DNA of 21,660 nucleotides from Agmasoma carcini (nom. nud.) (lineage: Eukaryota; Microsporidia; Thelohaniidae): assembly GCA_029232285.1 (NCBI GenBank), contig JAOXFI010000045.1:1-21660 (forward strand). Reading direction: 5' to 3'. The notes below the pieces were generated by a model. The model made no database searches and was not told the origin of the DNA. It saw nothing but the letters and a program-made list of their open reading frames with translations. A program made the translations under genes and the position numbers. Below are positions 2,367 through 19,606 of the stretch, piece after piece. Each line of letters opens with the position of its first letter. The stretch's first letter is position 1.

Positions 2367-4781
2367 TTATAACCCTTCAAAAATTTTGCCTTTAATAACT
2401 ATTTTTTGCATCTTATCTTTAACATTTGCCTTCTCCATAATCCTTTCTTCAACACTATTTTCTGTTATCAATCTATACACTGTAACATCTTTCGTCTGTC
2501 CCAACCTATGAACCCTATCCATGGCCTGTTGATCAACAGTTGGATTCCAATCAGAATCATAAAAAATAACAGTATCAGCAGCTGTCAAATTAATTCCTAC
2601 TCCACCTGCTCTTGTACTTAATATAAATATAAATATATCTTCATTCTGCCAGGAATCTACCAAATTCTTACGTGAAATCACCCTGCTTGATCCATCTAAT
2701 CTTAAATATGAAAAATTTTTAAAAGCTAAATAATTTTCAAAAATATCCATCATCTTAGTCATTTGAAAATAAATAAGAACTCGATGTCCATTGGCCTTTA
2801 AATCTTCTAGCAATAAATCAAGCCTTGCTAATTTACCAGAATCAGATATAAAATTATTCAAAGGAGGAACAAAAACTAAATTATTTTTGTATAAATTAGA
2901 ATTAAATTTTTGTTTCTCTTCAAACAATAACTCATTGGTAGATATTATAGGTCTAACAACCTTTTCAATCATAAACTTAAACCGACTTAATTCTCGTCTT
3001 TTTCTATTTAAATCTCTTAACACATAGTCTTGTAGATAAGAATCTACATTCCTAAACTTTAATGATGGCTTTACAACAATAGGCGCTTTCTTTACAATCT
3101 GTTTCAAATTTCCAATATAATTTTTATACTTAGAACCGTCACACTCCGTCTTAATCATAGAAAATTTACTATATGATGGCAAATAATGGCAAAATAAAGA
3201 TCTTTCCTTTAAATAATTTCCAGGGCCTGAAATTGCAAAAGAAATGCCTGTGTGTGGTCTTAATTTTTCAAAAAGATTGGGATGGTTACATATTTTCTTA
3301 AGGTGCATCAAAGTATTTTCATAATCACCTGACATCGATTCAATCTGTCTGTGTAGCTTTTCTTGTCTGTGACTCATTTTACAATTAACTTCTATAATTT
3401 CTTTACTTCCTATTTCATCAATAACATCATTTTTATGTCTTCTCAACATAAATGGCTTAAGTATTGTATGCAACTTATCAACCTGTGATATATTAGAAAT
3501 AACAATATCCTTTGAAAACCATTCAGAAAACTCTGATAGGGAATCAAAGAGAGTAGGCATGATAAAGTGAAGAAGTGACCATAGCTCTTGCATATTATTT
3601 TGAATTGGCGTACCTGTAAGTAATAATCGATTTCTAACTTTTAGAGACAACAAGGTTGTCCATCTTTGACTAGAAAATGATTTAATGGCCTGTGCCTCAT
3701 CCAAAATTAGATAATTCCATTTTATTTTCTTAAGAATAGCAAAATCTATAACAGCTAATTGATAACTAGTTATTATAACATTTGATTTTTTAATTAGTTT
3801 TCTAAGTGGTTTTCTTTCAGACAAATTTCCCCAATAATTAAGAACTGAAAAATCAGGAATGAATTTTTCAATTTCATTGGACCAATTGTAGAGGGTTGAA
3901 CTTGGTGAGATTATAAGAAAAGGACCATCAACACCTTCATTCTCTGATAAGTAAGCCAGGAAGGATAAAGATTGTACTGTTTTACCAAGGCCCATATCAT
4001 CTGCTAATATTCCATTTATTCCTTGCTCGTAAAGATTTACCAGCCATCTCAAACCTTTAAGTTGATAATTTTTAAGGGTGGCATTTAATATTTTAGGGGT
4101 GTCAACCTTTTTATATTCGTAAGTTTCTAATTTTTTGTTTTTTGTATATTCTTCATTTTCTTCAAACACTTTCTTGGCAGCCTCGACTGCAATTGAAGTA
4201 TCTTTCTCGTCAAAATCTTCAAAATTTTGCTTACGTTGACTAATCATTTCCTTTATTTTTGAACTTTCAGTGTTAAAATTTTTCTTATTCAAGAGGAAGC
4301 TTGCAAAGGCCTCTGTTTGATTCAGTAAGTAATTGAATTTACGCTCCTGTCGCAATTCTTCTTTGTTGTCCTTTTTAATTTCTTTTTTGTTTGTGTGTTT
4401 TTCTTGTTTTTTTAAGTAAATCATCAATTCTCTATTGATTCTTCTAGATTTGAGAATTGGATTGACTTTTGAAGTCTTAGATAGATATTTTTTGAGCTCC
4501 TTTGATGAACATATTGCTATTTTCTTTGATTGTGAAAGAACTGAGTTATAATTTTGTAAGAAAATTTTATAGGTTTTGGGAGTGTTTGAAATACATTCGT
4601 GGTAGTGACCGATGTATGTTGTAGGATTTTCTTTATATTTTTTGACGATATAAGCAAGTTTGATAGGGTTTACATGTTTAGATGTTGATACGATATTATC
4701 TACTGTTCTTGATGGGGTCTTAAATGGTTTGGATCTACTTTCAAAGAGCTTCTTCAAGTACTCGTGCTCCTGTGCTTTCAT
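2367..4781 (-). CDS. INO80: INO80-type Swi2/Snf2 chromatin-remodelling ATPase
   Basis: Catalytic subunit of the INO80 nucleosome-remodelling complex (nuclear; slides nucleosomes and edits H2A.Z in other eukaryotes). An N-terminal DBINO-like segment lies at about residues 113-167 (RRINRELMIYLKK to RKFNYLLNQTEAFASFLL). The Snf2 ATPase starts at about 236. Visible motifs are Walker A DDMGLGKT (261-268), the DEAQ box (361-364, with AIKS following as is typical of INO80), TGTPIQNN (389-396), STRAGGVGINLTAADT (722-737) and DRVHRLGQ (755-762). The block YDSDWNPTVDQQAMDR is near-diagnostic of INO80. The INO80-specific insertion between the RecA lobes is present but short (about 505-640). At 804 residues the protein is far shorter than yeast Ino80 (about 1490); what is missing is the N-terminal region that carries the Arp module outside DBINO. 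The start is the first Met, just downstream of an AAATTTTTCC motif. No broken motif is seen, so it should be active. Confidence 0.95.
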   Translation of the reverse strand: MKAQEHEYLKKLFESRSKPFKTPSRTVDNIVSTSKHVNPIKLAYIVKKYKENPTTYIGHYHECISNTPKTYKIFLQNYNSVLSQSKKIAICSSKELKKYLSKTSKVNPILKSRRINRELMIYLKKQEKHTNKKEIKKDNKEELRQERKFNYLLNQTEAFASFLLNKKNFNTESSKIKEMISQRKQNFEDFDEKDTSIAVEAAKKVFEENEEYTKNKKLETYEYKKVDTPKILNATLKNYQLKGLRWLVNLYEQGINGILADDMGLGKTVQSLSFLAYLSENEGVDGPFLIISPSSTLYNWSNEIEKFIPDFSVLNYWGNLSERKPLRKLIKKSNVIITSYQLAVIDFAILKKIKWNYLILDEAQAIKSFSSQRWTTLLSLKVRNRLLLTGTPIQNNMQELWSLLHFIMPTLFDSLSEFSEWFSKDIVISNISQVDKLHTILKPFMLRRHKNDVIDEIGSKEIIEVNCKMSHRQEKLHRQIESMSGDYENTLMHLKKICNHPNLFEKLRPHTGISFAISGPGNYLKERSLFCHYLPSYSKFSMIKTECDGSKYKNYIGNLKQIVKKAPIVVKPSLKFRNVDSYLQDYVLRDLNRKRRELSRFKFMIEKVVRPIISTNELLFEEKQKFNSNLYKNNLVFVPPLNNFISDSGKLARLDLLLEDLKANGHRVLIYFQMTKMMDIFENYLAFKNFSYLRLDGSSRVISRKNLVDSWQNEDIFIFILSTRAGGVGINLTAADTVIFYDSDWNPTVDQQAMDRVHRLGQTKDVTVYRLITENSVEERIMEKANVKDKMQKIVIKGKIFEGL

Positions 4782-5705: not shown

Positions 5706-7115
5706 TTAATTAATAATCCTCCGTGGAAACATTTCTATATGACCCACATCTTCAACATCTTCTTTCTCTACTTCAAACCTATTTATATCATTCACTTCCT
5801 TTGACAGCTTTGATTTATATTTATCTAACTCAGCTCGGATCGTCTCCAAATTTCTATCAATCTCATCATGTACTTTGTTTATTTCCGACAGCTGATTTTC
5901 ATCTAACTCAGCCTTTCCAACATCCTTTTCTGAATCTAAATCTAATTGATTCAACCTATTCGATAGCATATCTGAATGCTCTTTATAATAATTTAATTTG
6001 TTTTTTTGATCTGCTAACATCTTTGAAAGTCTATTAATCTCATTCTCAGTTAATCTCTTCTTAGCTTTTGTATTTTGTATTTCACTTCTAATATCATTTT
6101 TAGCTTTGCTTAAATTTGAAATAGAAGAATTAGCATCTGAAATTTGATTCTTAATTCTATCAGATTTACTTTTGATCGAGTCGTGCTTCCTTTCCATATC
6201 AAATACAAGATTAGTCAACTCATTTATCTTATCCTCTAGTTTACGTTTATTAGATTTCGCTTCATTGATTTTACTATTTAAATATGACTGTCTCGCTCGT
6301 CCTGCTTCTTCAATATGCTTATTATGTTCATTTATAAGTTCTTGTCTCGTAGGTAATTCTTTTTGTTTCATATTATAAGGAAAATAGCTAGGTGGTTCAA
6401 AAGAGGGCACACTTGATAATAAATTTTTTGCATTTCTAAAAGGTGGGGTTGGAAAATGTGGAATATCAAATGATTCTTCTGAAAAAGATTTATAAGGTGA
6501 TCTAAATGGTTTCCAAGGTTTTTGTCTAGGTCTATTATAATCCTTAAGAGGCATTCCATCTCTTTCTGTGTTCTTTGGTTTTTCAGGAATTTTTAAGCTT
6601 AGAGGGTAGCTAATAGATACTTGTTCTTTAGAATTCTTTTTTTCTTCATCTTCATCATCTTTCTTTGGTTCTTCTTCAGCACTAGAACTTGAACTGCTAC
6701 TTTCTTCATTCTCTTTGTTTTTTTTATCATTTTTTTGAGGTTGTTCTAAATCATAAAAATGTTCACCTATGTTTAGCCTTTTTAGTTTTCTAATTGGTGC
6801 AGTGGTCAATAATTGTTGTTTTTGAGGTTTTGGAATTGAAAATGGAAGTTGTGGTCTTTGTGGTTGTATTGGCTGTGGTGATTGTGCATTATTTTGTTGT
6901 TCTTGAATTGCCTTATGTGCATCGTTTGCTTGATGAAAAGGTAAATAACTTGAACTTAAACTTTGACCTTTTCCCAAATTAAGTGGTTTGTTTCTGTTGT
7001 TCCCACTATTTTGAGCTAGTCCTATGTCATCAACTATAATTGTTTCCGCATATGCAAATGTTAGGAACCAAAACATATTGTTATGTTTATTATTTTTGCT
7101 TATAAATAAATCCAT
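5706..7115 (-). CDS. probable secreted proline-rich, coiled-coil protein of unknown function
   Basis: 469 residues, not recognised as a known family. The N-terminus looks like a short signal peptide: a polar stretch to residue 13, a hydrophobic core MFWFLTF (14-20) and an A-Y-A site at 21-23 that would be cut before Glu24. The internal Met14 (codon 7074-7076) could be the true start but would leave a very short signal without positive charge, so the first Met is preferred. Residues 60-110 are rich in Gln and Pro. Residues 139-160 form an acidic low-complexity tract (seven Ser, then Glu/Asp/Lys). Residues 190-250 are rich in Pro, Phe and aromatics. Residues 255-450 are a long, highly charged helical region with coiled-coil periodicity. 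The order (signal peptide, disordered Pro-rich part, coiled coil) would suit a spore-wall, polar-tube-associated or host-exported protein in a microsporidian, but that is inference from architecture only. Confidence 0.75.
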   Translation of the reverse strand: MDLFISKNNKHNNMFWFLTFAYAETIIVDDIGLAQNSGNNRNKPLNLGKGQSLSSSYLPFHQANDAHKAIQEQQNNAQSPQPIQPQRPQLPFSIPKPQKQQLLTTAPIRKLKRLNIGEHFYDLEQPQKNDKKNKENEESSSSSSSAEEEPKKDDEDEEKKNSKEQVSISYPLSLKIPEKPKNTERDGMPLKDYNRPRQKPWKPFRSPYKSFSEESFDIPHFPTPPFRNAKNLLSSVPSFEPPSYFPYNMKQKELPTRQELINEHNKHIEEAGRARQSYLNSKINEAKSNKRKLEDKINELTNLVFDMERKHDSIKSKSDRIKNQISDANSSISNLSKAKNDIRSEIQNTKAKKRLTENEINRLSKMLADQKNKLNYYKEHSDMLSNRLNQLDLDSEKDVGKAELDENQLSEINKVHDEIDRNLETIRAELDKYKSKLSKEVNDINRFEVEKEDVEDVGHIEMFPRRIIN

Positions 7116-8088: not shown

Positions 8089-11000
8089 TTACCCTTTTAA
8101 TTCTTCTTTGTTCACTTTTGGTCTATTTGGATCAAATCCATATCTTTTATATTCAAAATGATGATCATAATTCTCTTTAAATATCTCTGAGAATTGTTTC
8201 CATGCTTTTACATAGTCAATTTCAATTTCACTAGCCATCTTTTTTGATACTCCACTGATACTCATAAATTCATCAAAACTTTTGTTGTATTGAACACCTA
8301 AAAGCCTTATCTGATTTAGAACATATTCAAATTCATAAATAGAACCAGGCCTATCTTTGGTTAAAGCCTTTCTAGAATTTTTAAAACTAGATGTAGTTGT
8401 AGTACTCATATCAAGCTCAGCATCAGCAGAAAACCGTTCCTTAATACCATCTATTCGTTTAGCAAAACCAACCAAATCAATTTTTAGCAAATTCAATTGA
8501 TTAATAAAATTCATGACAGATTCGTTTAAAATAAGACAAAACTTATCATGTTTTATACAAGAAATAACGTTATTAAACTTAATTTCCATATTCAATATCC
8601 TTTTTACTGCATTTTCTTCTTTTATGATATCAGCAATAAAATCAACATTATCATCATAAACCAAACAACAAGCCTCTTCATACTTTCGTACCTTAATGAA
8701 ATACTCCGTTGCTTTGTTATAATCACCATAAAAGAAATAATATTGAGCCAATATTTCAAACTTGTTCTCAAATAACATTTTAGTTACAATTGAATCATTA
8801 ACTAGTTTTTCATCATTTAAATAGAAAAATTCTGGGAAAAACAAATTTTCAACAGCAACTGTTCTTGCACCTTCAAGATCATTATTATAAATCTTTAGTA
8901 TCATGCTTAGATATTTGTCCTGACATATCAAACTAATATCACCATAAAAGTTGTATGAAGATGGTAGAAACTCTAGAAACTGCATCATAAGTAATGATTC
9001 ATATAAATTATGTCTTTGTGCATATGATATTTTGTTTTCAGCAAAATATAAAATATATTCCTTTTTACCTATTGTCTTCATCAGGTCTAGATTGTTAAAC
9101 TTTAATTCAGTATAACCCTTTTGTAAAAAGTTAAAAGTTTTAACTATGATATTCTGATCTAAGGTAAAAATACAGGATTCCAATATTTTATCAATACTAA
9201 CTTTGTTTTTTAATATTTTAAGAACTGAGGAAAGGTCTTCTAGATAAAGGCAAAGGTCTATACGATTGCATTTTATGAATAAATTGACCAAAGATAATAT
9301 TTTTTTGGTAGGATCGAGGCAGCTTAATAATTTTTCGATCAATAAATCATCTTTATATTTAATAAAAGATGTATCAATGCTATTCTCAATGTTATAATTA
9401 CTTATATCATAAGAGTATAACCTTTCCTTGTTATAGATGCTTATTTTAGGCTTGAACTTAACTAACAACTTTTCATAATATTTCTTTCCTATATAAATTG
9501 AATTCTTTGTGACTATTTTTCCGTATAGTAAGTCTAAATCAAAAACACATACACCTCTTTCCAAGTATTCCTCTTCTAATATTATTTCTTTTGTATCAAA
9601 AAGTACATCAATAAGTTTAGATAGTTGTAAATCACTTAAATAATCGATGTACTTCATTGGGAAAGATTTTATCAACAAATTGCCTTCTTCTTTCTTTAAA
9701 TAGTATCTGAAATCATGACTTAGTAAAGAATCTGAATCAGAGCACTCAATTAGAAATATTTTATAATCCAAATGGTTCCTGTCAGCAAAATCAAATACTT
9801 TTCTTATATCCTCATCTTTTTCAACAGTCTTATACATATCTAAAGCAATTTTTATAGAAAGTGGCTTAAGTGTAAAACTCTCTAAAGATCCAAATGAAGT
9901 ATATAAAATCAACCTATTATCAACAATTTTTAAAATATAAGAATTATCAATATTTAAATTTTGTCTTATGGCGAATAGATTGATATCAGTTGTAAAACAA
10001 AGCTTTTCATTGTAAACATATATACTTAAGATTTTAGAATCTTTACATAAGCTCACTGAATGATATTCATAAAGCTCTTTGTCCTTATAACACCATATTA
10101 TGTTGTTATTTAATATAAAAACATCAGATCTTGTTGTTTTAATATCATAATATGATTTGAGGTTAATTTTCTCACATTGTTCAAAATATTCTAAATTCCC
10201 ATTATGTACATAAACGTCTATGATTTGGTTATCTTCACGGATCAGTTCATAATTCTTATATATTTTTGAGAATGAACGAATATAAATATCATCATCAATT
10301 ATCAATATTCTATTACCATAACAATCAAAATCAGTTTTCTTAATCAATTCAAAATTATACTCATTATTCTCGTAATGATAAATGTGATGCTTTGTTGCTA
10401 CAATTAGTGATTTATCATCAATGTAAAAACTGCGTACTTGACTGTCAAATGTAAACTTTTTGTAATACAATGGAGGGGGTATTAAAAATCTTGAAATATT
10501 ATTAAAATATAAAGTTTCTCCGTCAATTGCACCATCCTCAACCACCATATTAACATAATAGACACTTTCATCACATATTATAGTGTTTTCTTTAACCCCT
10601 ACAAGCTTATCATTCTGCTCAAATTTAGTATACCACTTAAAATTTTCCAAGTATAACATTTTAAATATGGAATCATTGTATATAATCAAGGAATTTGGTA
10701 TGTTTGGGAACTTTGTTAGATTTACATCACCATCAATAAGTTTATAACGTTCCATGTTGTGTTCAAGCCCGTTAGACAAATAAAATCTTATTTCTGATCC
10801 AATTAAACAAGGAAATAAATTATATTTGGAAAGATATGAAATGTCCTTAACATCTTCATCAATTTTTATAAATTTGTTTTCATTATAGATCATTTTGTTA
10901 TCTACAACTATATAATCACCTAAGAGCTTGATGCGTTTGCATTCCGAATCTATATCACAAACCTTAAACTCTTTAAGTACATTAAATTCTACATCAAATA

Positions 11001-11238
11001 CAAATAGTTCAGTACTTGTTAAAATGGCAATTCTATCATTTGTAAAAAACGAATCTACTATTGGATCAGAGAAATGACCAAGCATTTGTAAATCATTTGT
11101 ATATTTGTTTAAAGAATATACCTTATGTTCGTTAGTTATATAGACATAGTGGAACTTGAGATCACCCATAGCTATATAATCTATCGGATGATTATATTTA
11201 GTCAATTCTCTTTTTACATTCAGATAAAAATTCTTCAT
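8089..11238 (-). CDS. ELP1: Elongator complex subunit 1 (ELP1/IKI3)-like protein
   Basis: Probable scaffold subunit of Elongator, the cytoplasmic complex that modifies wobble uridine (U34) of tRNAs; the catalytic subunit is ELP3. Residues 1-450 are beta-rich with propeller-like periodicity and begin MKNFYLNV, as ELP1 proteins begin with a similar Met-Arg/Lys-Asn-Leu stretch. From about 480 the protein is all helical. At about 833-880 there is a TPR-like unit (FFYGDYNKATEYFIKVRKYE), as in ELP1. Near the C-terminus a Ser/Thr stretch (about 943-951) leads into a basic segment, KNSRKALTKDRPGSIYEFEY (953-972), matching the conserved SRK...K..G..YEEEY block of ELP1. The end, RPKVNKEELK, resembles the PPKINR tail of the human protein. 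It has 1049 residues against roughly 1330-1350 in yeast and human. There is no RING finger, which argues against Vps11/Vps18, the main alternative by architecture. The start is the first Met, with TTTTCC abutting it. Confidence 0.7.
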   Translation of the reverse strand: MKNFYLNVKRELTKYNHPIDYIAMGDLKFHYVYITNEHKVYSLNKYTNDLQMLGHFSDPIVDSFFTNDRIAILTSTELFVFDVEFNVLKEFKVCDIDSECKRIKLLGDYIVVDNKMIYNENKFIKIDEDVKDISYLSKYNLFPCLIGSEIRFYLSNGLEHNMERYKLIDGDVNLTKFPNIPNSLIIYNDSIFKMLYLENFKWYTKFEQNDKLVGVKENTIICDESVYYVNMVVEDGAIDGETLYFNNISRFLIPPPLYYKKFTFDSQVRSFYIDDKSLIVATKHHIYHYENNEYNFELIKKTDFDCYGNRILIIDDDIYIRSFSKIYKNYELIREDNQIIDVYVHNGNLEYFEQCEKINLKSYYDIKTTRSDVFILNNNIIWCYKDKELYEYHSVSLCKDSKILSIYVYNEKLCFTTDINLFAIRQNLNIDNSYILKIVDNRLILYTSFGSLESFTLKPLSIKIALDMYKTVEKDEDIRKVFDFADRNHLDYKIFLIECSDSDSLLSHDFRYYLKKEEGNLLIKSFPMKYIDYLSDLQLSKLIDVLFDTKEIILEEEYLERGVCVFDLDLLYGKIVTKNSIYIGKKYYEKLLVKFKPKISIYNKERLYSYDISNYNIENSIDTSFIKYKDDLLIEKLLSCLDPTKKILSLVNLFIKCNRIDLCLYLEDLSSVLKILKNKVSIDKILESCIFTLDQNIIVKTFNFLQKGYTELKFNNLDLMKTIGKKEYILYFAENKISYAQRHNLYESLLMMQFLEFLPSSYNFYGDISLICQDKYLSMILKIYNNDLEGARTVAVENLFFPEFFYLNDEKLVNDSIVTKMLFENKFEILAQYYFFYGDYNKATEYFIKVRKYEEACCLVYDDNVDFIADIIKEENAVKRILNMEIKFNNVISCIKHDKFCLILNESVMNFINQLNLLKIDLVGFAKRIDGIKERFSADAELDMSTTTTSSFKNSRKALTKDRPGSIYEFEYVLNQIRLLGVQYNKSFDEFMSISGVSKKMASEIEIDYVKAWKQFSEIFKENYDHHFEYKRYGFDPNRPKVNKEELKG

Positions 11239-15004: not shown

Positions 15005-15300
15005 CTAGCTTCCATGAGGCGAGCTCGCCTGCCTCTGGACCGATAGACTTTTTAGGTTATTCAACTTTATCCAGTAGTAGTAACCATTTAACCTGAACGT
15101 AGTTATACGTAATGATGAGAACTAACACTATGAAGATTATATTGATGATCTATTAACAACTTTTTCTTCCTCTTTACCAAAGCACAAACAAAGTGTAAGG
15201 TGGCGTAAGCCGAGTTTACGGACCACGATTAGGAAGGGTTGCTGGTTTTTTAAACTTTTACCAGATTCTCCGAAGAATAATCCCGATAAATAAACTATTT
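15005..15300 (+). repeat. retroposon tail family, copy A
   Basis: Shared with 20561-20867: blocks agctTCCATGAGG / gctCCCATGGAG, GCCTCTGGACC / ACCTCCGGATC, CAAAGCACA followed by GTGTAAGGTGGCGTAAG, then CGAGTTTACGGA and TTTTACCAG near the end. It holds a perfect 14-base palindrome AGGCGAGCTCGCCT (15017-15030), and CGTAA/TTACG arms at 15204-15208 and 15216-15220. It finishes with CGATAAATAAACTATTT, as does copy C. Confidence 0.75.
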
Positions 15301-15319
15301 TTTTGATATAGTTCTGTCA
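15301..15319 (+). repeat. target-site duplication, right copy
   Basis: ttttgatatagttctgtca, matching 14533-14551 in 18 of 19 positions. Confidence 0.85.
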
Positions 15320-15699
15320 GTCACATTAAAAACCCAATAAATTTGTTTGTATGTACAATCAGTAAGTAACATATAAATTATATACTTTGGCAAGGTGATG
15401 TTTGTGTTTAACAGTGACTTTCTTGCACCACATAATGTTTTACTACACTTATATCCCAAAAAATATTTATCCGTTCTTTTATATACTTTTAGTAGTGATA
15501 TTGAATCACAACCCTCCTTGTAACACATTATTTTCAACCAAAAGTCTTTTAATTTCACTATACCTAAAAATATAGAATCAATTATATCTAAATACATGTC
15601 AATAAAATTTTTGTTATATAATAATTTATAAAAAAATAGACCCAAAGTATAGAAGACCCTAAACCCGCATTTTTGACATTTAAGGATTACAGTCACAGA

Positions 15700-18684: not shown

Positions 18685-19606
18685 ATGGCCTCAAACATAT
18701 TTGCTCAGAATCCGGATACGATGGGTGTCTTTGTTCAATGTGCTATATTTGTAGTTAAAGGTTTATTATTAACTATCCATACAAGTGAACATATCATTGA
18801 AATGAAAGGAAATTCTCTTGCTCACAACTACTTTAACTTCCATGTTCTAAACTTGTTCAATACAATCAATGTTGCTGAGGCTATAATTGGTAGACAGGCA
18901 TTTAGGTATATATTCTCTATGTTTCATATAATCTATGATACATTCACTGTATATTTCCTAACTCATATTGAAAAAAATATTTCTATAATTGATTATGAAA
19001 TTGCTTTTGCATTTGCCATTATTTCACTCCTAGAGCTTTTATATAAGTACAAAAAAACCAGAACTTTGTCATATGATGTCAATAAGCATATGTTAAAAAT
19101 TTGTGGTGTAAACTACTACGCGTACAGTAAGTGTTATATTTAATTTAAGAAGTTTATAAAATGCGACAAACCTTGAAGATATTTACTAAGTATGATCTTT
19201 TGACCTGTTTTAACACCATTGAAAGGCTTTATGATTCTATTATAACAGAGGGATTTCAGATGAACGCAATGATATCATTGTTTTCCTTGGGAGTAATATA
19301 TCAAATGTTATCTATTGGTAGTATTTTTGGGATTACTAAGCGAAGGCGTTTTTTTATGATTCTCCTTAAGCTCTGTCATTTTTCAGATCATATTCTACAT
19401 ATCTTTGTTATTGGATATAATGGAATTCATGATGTCAAATACAAAATGTAAGTGTTCAATTTAATTTAAGTTTATTCATAAAATTTGTACTACAATTGTT
19501 AATCGATATTCCAACCTTATTCTATCTCTATATTGACTATAAATTCATGGATAAACACCATCTTGATTGTGTTGATCCTTTTAGATACAAATATGAACTA
19601 GAATAA
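18685..19606 (+). CDS. three-exon multi-pass membrane protein of unknown function
   Basis: Exons 18685-19126, 19150-19447 and 19471-19606 join into 876 bases: 291 codons plus TAA. Unspliced, the region gives only a 152-codon ORF, a 96-codon ORF and an orphan open tail. Removing two 23-base introns joins all three in frame (junction codons A|AA for Lys148 and AT|T for Ile247). The product is hydrophobic, with likely membrane spans at about 14-33, 52-69, 73-93, 102-120, 185-208, 214-236 and 246-268, so roughly seven passes. Loops are Lys/Arg-rich (for example KYKKTRT at 121-127 and TKRRR at 210-214). The C-terminal tail is polar (MDKHHLDCVDPFRY). There is no signal peptide ahead of the first span. 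I do not recognise the family. Microsporidian introns are best known from ribosomal-protein genes, so a membrane protein with two is notable. Confidence 0.85.
19127..19149 (+). other. intron 1 (23 nt)
   Basis: Starts GTAAGTGTTA and ends TTTAATTTAAG. The 5' site is a perfect GTAAGT, and the putative branch A (TTAAT) lies almost on top of the 3' AG, as is known for microsporidian introns. It sits in phase 1, contains an in-frame stop if retained, and its length is not a multiple of three. Confidence 0.85.
19448..19470 (+). other. intron 2 (23 nt)
   Basis: Starts GTAAGTGTTC and ends TTTAATTTAAG. It has the same length as intron 1 and differs at only a few middle positions. It sits in phase 2, and its removal brings an otherwise orphan 45-codon tail into frame. 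Confidence 0.85.

Follow-up and report, generated by a model that had tools for sequence, protein, structure and literature searches.

The 21,660-nucleotide stretch of DNA analyzed here (the window) is contig JAOXFI010000045.1 of the microsporidian Agmasoma carcini (nom. nud.), referred to below as contig C7 of a 4.26-Mb, 69-contig genome. A gene on its plus strand, from position 18685 to 19606, is divided into three exons by two segments of 23 nucleotides (nt) each. We conclude that these segments are very probably spliceosomal GT-AG introns in one of a set of paralogous genes for membrane proteins of about 280-300 amino acids (aa), in a microsporidian of the Enterocytozoonida group, and that their 5' splice sites would be held by an inferred helix with an altered U6 RNA. 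By all the evidence of the sequence, the segments are introns of a known class. The new findings are the matching change in U6, the concentration of introns within a single family of paralogues, and the organism's phylogenetic position.

A sequence-only reading had proposed that removing two 23-nt introns rebuilds a membrane protein of 291 residues. When we recomputed its coordinates, intron lengths, phases, end sequences and joined frame, all were correct. Exon 1 (18685 to 19126; 442 nt, or 147 codons plus 1 nt) is an open frame related to exon 1 of two other copies of the gene, on contigs C56 and C31. It is followed by intron 1 (19127 to 19149; phase 1; GTAAGTGTTATATTTAATTTAAG), exon 2 (19150 to 19447; 298 nt), intron 2 (19448 to 19470; phase 2; GTAAGTGTTCAATTTAATTTAAG) and exon 3 (19471 to 19606; 136 nt including the stop), which continues the frame and encodes the last hydrophobic segment and the tail. 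Both introns have the form GTAAGTGTT-linker-TAATTTAAG, with ATATT as the linker in intron 1 and CAATT in intron 2. The spliced exons total 876 nt, or 291 codons and a stop, and the hydropathy profile of the product contains five to seven candidate membrane segments, in agreement with the proposed membrane protein.

Retention of the introns would cut this protein short. Intron 1 contains an in-frame stop, and translation would end after 152 aa if both introns, or intron 1 alone, were retained. If only intron 2 were retained, it would end after 247 aa, running one residue further and stopping without the last hydrophobic segment. As the sequence-only reading had anticipated, a listing of open reading frames (ORFs) in the unspliced DNA reports two small ones, of 152 and 96 aa. 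It had also held that two such segments could hardly arise by chance, and the pattern GTAAGTN{3,25}TTTAATTTAAG indeed matches twice in the window, compared with a mean of 0.01 in 100 shuffled versions (at least two matches in 0 of 100).

Stronger than this statistic is the recurrence of intron positions, phases and exon lengths in diverged paralogues. The family comprises six genes, whose products are each about 280-300 aa long and contain several hydrophobic segments. Protein identity to the window (C7) copy is 50% for C56, 22% for C31, 18% for C21, 15% for C12 and 16% for C35. A genome search with the C7 protein recovers C56 and C31, one with the C35 protein recovers C12, and no others appear at E≤1. 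In all six genes the last intron lies in phase 2 directly after a lysine codon and, by hydropathy, no more than six residues from where the last hydrophobic segment begins. C7, C56 and C31 also share intron 1, in phase 1, and all three of these two-intron genes have an exon 2 of 298 nt and an exon 3 of 136 nt. The last exon of the C35 gene is incomplete, as its contig ends before the stop.

The closest pair, C7 and C56, also allowed a comparison of coding constraint. The ratio of nonsynonymous to synonymous differences per site (pN/pS) in exon 2 is 0.59 in frame, compared with 1.03 and 1.15 in the other two frames. In exon 3 the in-frame ratio is 0.57 and those of the other frames are 0.61 and 1.60, a weak test that decides little. 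DNA identity between the two copies is 75% over exon 3 and 35% (ungapped) over the 136 nt past the stop.

We aligned the nine introns of the family, which range from 22 to 24 nt. All nine carry AAGTGTT at positions +3 to +9, end in TAATTTAAG and thus in AG, and have TAATTT directly before the final AAG; the GT start and GTAAGT donor are present in eight. The varying part is a linker of 4-6 nt between GTAAGTGTT and TAATTTAAG, plus one donor base in one copy. That copy is intron 2 of C56 (L005, minus strand, 1202-1180), which starts with GA and keeps both +3 to +9 and the 3' end; its exon 3 is open and similar despite the GA donor. The fixed ends hold at two different positions in the gene and among proteins 15-22% identical. 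The sequence-only reading had attributed the near identity of the two window introns to either a recent common origin or a very strict spliceosome. Because the linker varies across the nine introns while the ends stay fixed, no recent common origin is needed, and the near identity is best read as constraint rather than recent copying, in line with the second of these proposals. The branch-like motif and 3' splice site occupy 19141 to 19149 in intron 1 and 19462 to 19470 in intron 2, consistent with the earlier suggestion that the branch site is fused to the 3' splice site.

A genome scan for the shared motif, as the sequence-only reading had suggested, returned mostly family introns. The pattern GTAAGTN{3,30}TAATTTAAG has 11 matches in the genome, compared with 4 for its reversed control. 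Eight of them lie in the six family genes, and the other three give no joined frame longer than 40 aa. The 5' motif GTAAGTGTT occurs at 57 sites among the matches listed genome-wide (45 for the reversed control); 12 of these are followed within about 80 nt by TAAYTT and then AG, and the eight that join frames are all family introns. Two of the 57 sites belong to short AT-rich repeats containing GTAAGTGTTGAAGTATAAATGATAT, which we observed from 1501 in the region G000:C18:6995-10003 (L047).

We also scanned for a looser motif, GTRNGW...TAAYTT..AG, in 79 sources totaling 256,418 bases, a figure that includes overlaps and the window; many of the sources had been picked through GTAAGTGTT. Of 32 candidates, 8 give joined frames, and every one of these belongs to the family; in intron 1 of C31 the scan places the acceptor 2 nt downstream of the one first assigned. 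Controls with a TGRNTG donor, an altered branch or an altered acceptor join none (0/7, 0/6 and 0/28, respectively). With a GARNGW donor, frames are joined in 3 of 25 candidates, namely the C56 intron, a second that overlaps a C31 intron, and an unrelated chance join of 64 nt. Among candidates from the same sources with a YAG acceptor, none of the 6 with a CTGAY branch motif and none of the 9 with CTAAY gave a joined frame. The acceptor variant TAATTTAG was discarded: its 2 genome matches are outnumbered by the 11 of the reversed control, and one of the two lies inside an unbroken 452-aa frame, while the other would join no more than 5 residues that lack a start codon to 64. Two genes matching Ribosomal_L27A, among many ribosomal genes, are uninterrupted frames of 193 and 166 aa with no intron visible by eye. 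Together, these results suggest that the introns of this genome cluster in a single family, a distribution that departs from what is usual in microsporidia.

The fixed 5' motif has a counterpart in U6. The genome contains one U6 match (56.2 bits, with 47 of 611 candidates scored), on contig C31, which also carries a family member. It reads GAACAACACUGAGAAGAUUAGC where the Rfam consensus is gAACgAUACAGAGAAGAUUAGC, so that the ACAGA box is ACUGA, with AAC directly before it. All three differences face intron positions +4 to +9, and each gives a Watson-Crick pair. The resulting AACACU is the exact complement of AGUGUU, found in the window at 19130 to 19135 (intron 1) and 19451 to 19456 (intron 2), and is the only such site in the U6 match. 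With GUAAGUGUU, the predicted duplex has an energy of -5.8 kcal/mol for this U6 and -2.8 kcal/mol for a human-type box. The altered U6 could explain the long 5' motif, through a pairing that is predicted to form in the cell.

Other parts of the splicing machinery were also detected. A U2 match of 35.5 bits has its branch-pairing GUAGUA intact. The branch-like motifs score 1.6 and 0.3 kcal/mol against it, compared with -3.2 kcal/mol for UACUAAC, and since they pair so poorly, most of the information from base pairing would have to come from the 5' site. The PRP8 domain PF10597 matches at 44 bits within a 1426-aa open frame; in the controls, 1 of 14 genomes matched, none above the cut-off. A profile search of the genome for PF05971 (METTL16-type) gave no match, and the same profile matched 5 of 14 genomes in a prokaryote-only control.

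From these observations, we propose that a helix of six base pairs between intron positions +4 to +9 (AGUGUU) and AACACU of U6 sets the 5' splice site. Replacing the central A of ACAGA with U would give +4A a Watson-Crick partner that does not depend on the methylated A made elsewhere by METTL16. The branch A would lie in TTTAATT, seven bases from the end of the intron, and would pair weakly with a U2 of normal sequence, so that recognition would depend chiefly on the 5' site. The linker of 4-6 nt would then be the one part free to vary, which would be why introns 1 and 2 look so alike. If intron 2 were retained, the protein would end before its last hydrophobic segment.

Several points weigh against this interpretation. 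The removal of both introns is itself predicted from the sequence. Intron 2 of C56 would be a non-canonical GA-AG site, a sign of early decay in a damaged gene, or an assembly error. The U6 reading comes from a single locus, and the Rfam consensus is weakly conserved at one of the three positions that differ. By our own arithmetic, if every substituted base were equally likely, three random changes would all produce pairs in about 1 case in 27; for this reason, the +7 to +9 part of the pairing is suggestive, not proven. GUAAGU alone favors the human-type box (-1.4 versus -0.6 kcal/mol for this U6), as do a made-up donor, GUAAGUAUA (-2.6 versus -1.1), and GUAUGU (-2.9 versus -1.0), although the program picks its own register. 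Because these shorter or different donors score better with the human-type box, the gain in pairing is specific to the extended motif. The U2 score lies below the Rfam gathering score of 46. The PF05971 result comes from a profile search that could miss a diverged enzyme and is no proof that one is lacking. A genome search for U1 was empty, and its control was likewise silent, making that result uninformative. The usual 5' end of U1, AUACUUAC, could hold +7 (through a G-U wobble) and +8 (U-A), though not +9.

This last point bears on an alternative in which U1 or protein contacts, and not U6, constrain +7 to +9. We consider it unlikely: the U1 pairs at +7 and +8 would be feasible with the usual U1 end, but they leave both +9 and the A-to-U change of U6 opposite +4 unexplained. 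Less probable still is that the 5' motif was kept through recent copying of introns within the family, independently of U6. Every intron copy we found does sit in one gene family, and intron 1 is identical over all 23 nt in C7 and C56. Against copying stand the divergence of the host proteins, down to 15-22% identity, the matching changes in U6, and a linker that differs in length and sequence between two fixed ends, which is the mark of constraint. We therefore reject recent copying as the sole cause of the identity.

That the gene has no introns, and is instead a decayed gene whose open frame is an accident of two small insertions or sequencing errors, seems highly improbable. Such a history could accommodate the C56 copy, which departs from the others at a splice site, and chance joins do occur, as the unrelated 64-nt join in the control illustrates. 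It would not account for the positions, phases and exon lengths shared by the paralogues, for the failure of the TGRNTG donor, altered branch and altered acceptor controls to join frames, or for the lower in-frame pN/pS of exon 2. Minor (U12-type) or self-splicing introns are hardly conceivable here. U12-type introns have the donor RTATCCTT and the branch TCCTTRAC, and the donor and branch sequences of the family introns differ from both. At 23 nt the segments are far too short for group I or group II introns, and an Rfam scan of the window found no family of any kind at gathering score. The TAATTT hexamer fits the TAAYTT of Encephalitozoon cuniculi introns (PMC2483917).

Read as spliceosomal introns, the segments resemble the short introns of other microsporidia. 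E. cuniculi introns span 22-76 nt (PMC3629993), and in one study all 13 of those counted had TAAYTT as their branch hexamer (PMC2483917). Microsporidian intron retention leads to stops or frameshifts (PMC3629993). The family introns share the length range and the TAAYTT hexamer and, in eight of nine, the GT-AG ends and the GTAAGT donor; the two in the window share the stop on retention. By sequence they belong to the short microsporidian class, while the sequence-only reading's phrase "among the shortest known" was too strong: they fall within the range of 22-76 nt, and mikrocytid introns measure 16-17 nt. Mikrocytids likewise have a reduced spliceosome and introns that are very short and uniform, but 224 introns are predicted there (PMC10245619), whereas the motif found eight here, of 22-24 nt. 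Microsporidian introns also tend to lie in ribosomal-protein genes, many at the 5' end (PMC3749934), although E. cuniculi has others too; those described here are mid-gene and late, belong to one membrane-protein family, and have a 5' motif extending to +9.

The U6 change finds its closest parallel in the red alga Cyanidioschyzon merolae, and this genome looks like that case. In many eukaryotes, METTL16 methylates the central A of ACAGA, which makes a non-Watson-Crick contact with +4 (PMC11732430). In Saccharomycotina, switches to +4U accompany the loss of METTL16, while ACAGA is invariant in 240 species (PMC10581693), and the methylase was lost in species with few introns (PMC10581693, PMC11732430). 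This genome differs from Saccharomycotina without METTL16 in that +4A is kept and U6 is changed. For that alternative route, C. merolae is given as the sole illustration (PMC10581693, also PMC8163875). It has 27 introns and no N6-methyladenosine in U6 (PMC8163875, PMC10581693), and its U6 likewise reads ACUGA, with U for the central A as a Watson-Crick partner for +4A. The portions of literature examined do not mention pairing at +7 to +9 in C. merolae. Within the part of the literature that was searched, the only other ACUGA box is that of C. merolae, and a microsporidian one may have been published elsewhere.

We used an INO80-type chromatin remodeler encoded in the window (2367 to 4781, minus strand), recognized by Pfam and homologues, to place the organism by trees. 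The trees contained 27 and then 23 proteins, hand-picked from 120 listed, with Vittaforma corneae and Enterocytozoon bieneusi absent; the second dropped the fungal outgroups, Nematocida, Conglomerata, Binucleata and one other row and added four rows. The window protein groups with Glugoides, Enteropsectra, Pancytospora, Nucleospora, Enterospora and Ecytonucleospora, with support of 100 for 14 rows in the first tree and 100/100 for 17 rows in the second. This clade corresponds to the Enterocytozoonida as described in PMC13174016, and the organism is placed with it by these protein sequences. In the second tree, the window branches with the Glugoides-Enteropsectra side (92/87) on a long end branch; a basal place in the clade is not rejected (approximately unbiased test, p-AU 0.089). 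An earlier study inferred that the ancestor of E. bieneusi and V. corneae had lost canonical splicing or kept it in reduced form (PMC4435813). If the window lineage is nested within the clade, splicing would have been lost at least two times; if it is basal, perhaps once, after this lineage split. Separately, we noticed that a protein filed under the caddisfly Arctopsyche grandis matches 48% of the INO80 query at 57% identity, possibly reflecting microsporidian DNA in the insect assembly.

Searches with the proteins themselves returned little. No member of the family has a Pfam match above the cut-off (0 of 6). Against the PDB, the window protein gave two chance-level matches (best E 0.35) and the six-member alignment none. 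The comparison with microsporidian proteomes that the sequence-only reading had called for found no relative: searches of protein collections with the spliced protein and the six-member alignment gave nothing at E≤1 among 426 and 3364 word-sharing candidates. Within the reach of these tools, the sequences point to a membrane family that is diverged and so far found in no other genome, and a role at the parasite surface or at inner membranes is a guess. In all six genes the last exon carries the last hydrophobic segment, so retention of the last intron (intron 2 in the window) would yield a form without it. A precedent exists in E. cuniculi ECU11_0850, in which the upstream intron is spliced more than the downstream one, so that some 3'-truncated transcripts would result (PMC3629993). 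By analogy, a similar truncated outcome in this family is plausible.

The remainder of the window offers a few further observations. A 469-aa protein (5706-7115, minus strand) has a hydrophobic stretch near its N-terminus and a Gln/Pro-rich, coiled-coil-like composition, with no Pfam match above the cut-off; it could be secreted or structural. A 1049-aa protein (8089-11238, minus strand) has weak Pfam matches below the cut-off, to an ELP1 beta-propeller and HHH. A 100-aa Cys-containing ORF (15295-15597, minus strand), with a weak zinc-finger match also below the cut-off, presumably resembles the zinc-ribbon end of an IS1595/Merlin-type transposase. A tRNA scan yielded nothing useful.

Taken further, the findings could mean that the spliceosome of this organism survives mainly for one fast-evolving membrane-protein family, introns elsewhere being largely gone. 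U6 and the introns would have co-evolved a private six-pair code (ACUGA plus AAC, facing AGUGUU), making this a second origin of the C. merolae solution, and the late intron may have been kept as a splicing switch between two forms of the protein. We put this broader scenario forward tentatively and regard it as doubtful, if possible. The genome provides a second test case for the idea that introns with +4A need either a methylated A in U6 or a U in its place. It also puts splicing inside or beside a microsporidian group with an inferred ancestral loss (PMC4435813). A recent genome in that group was annotated with an intronless gene model (PMC13174016), and such annotation would overlook or truncate genes like the one at 18685 to 19606. 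With a spliceosome serving so few introns, concentrated in one family, the question of why an organism keeps its last introns would become directly testable.
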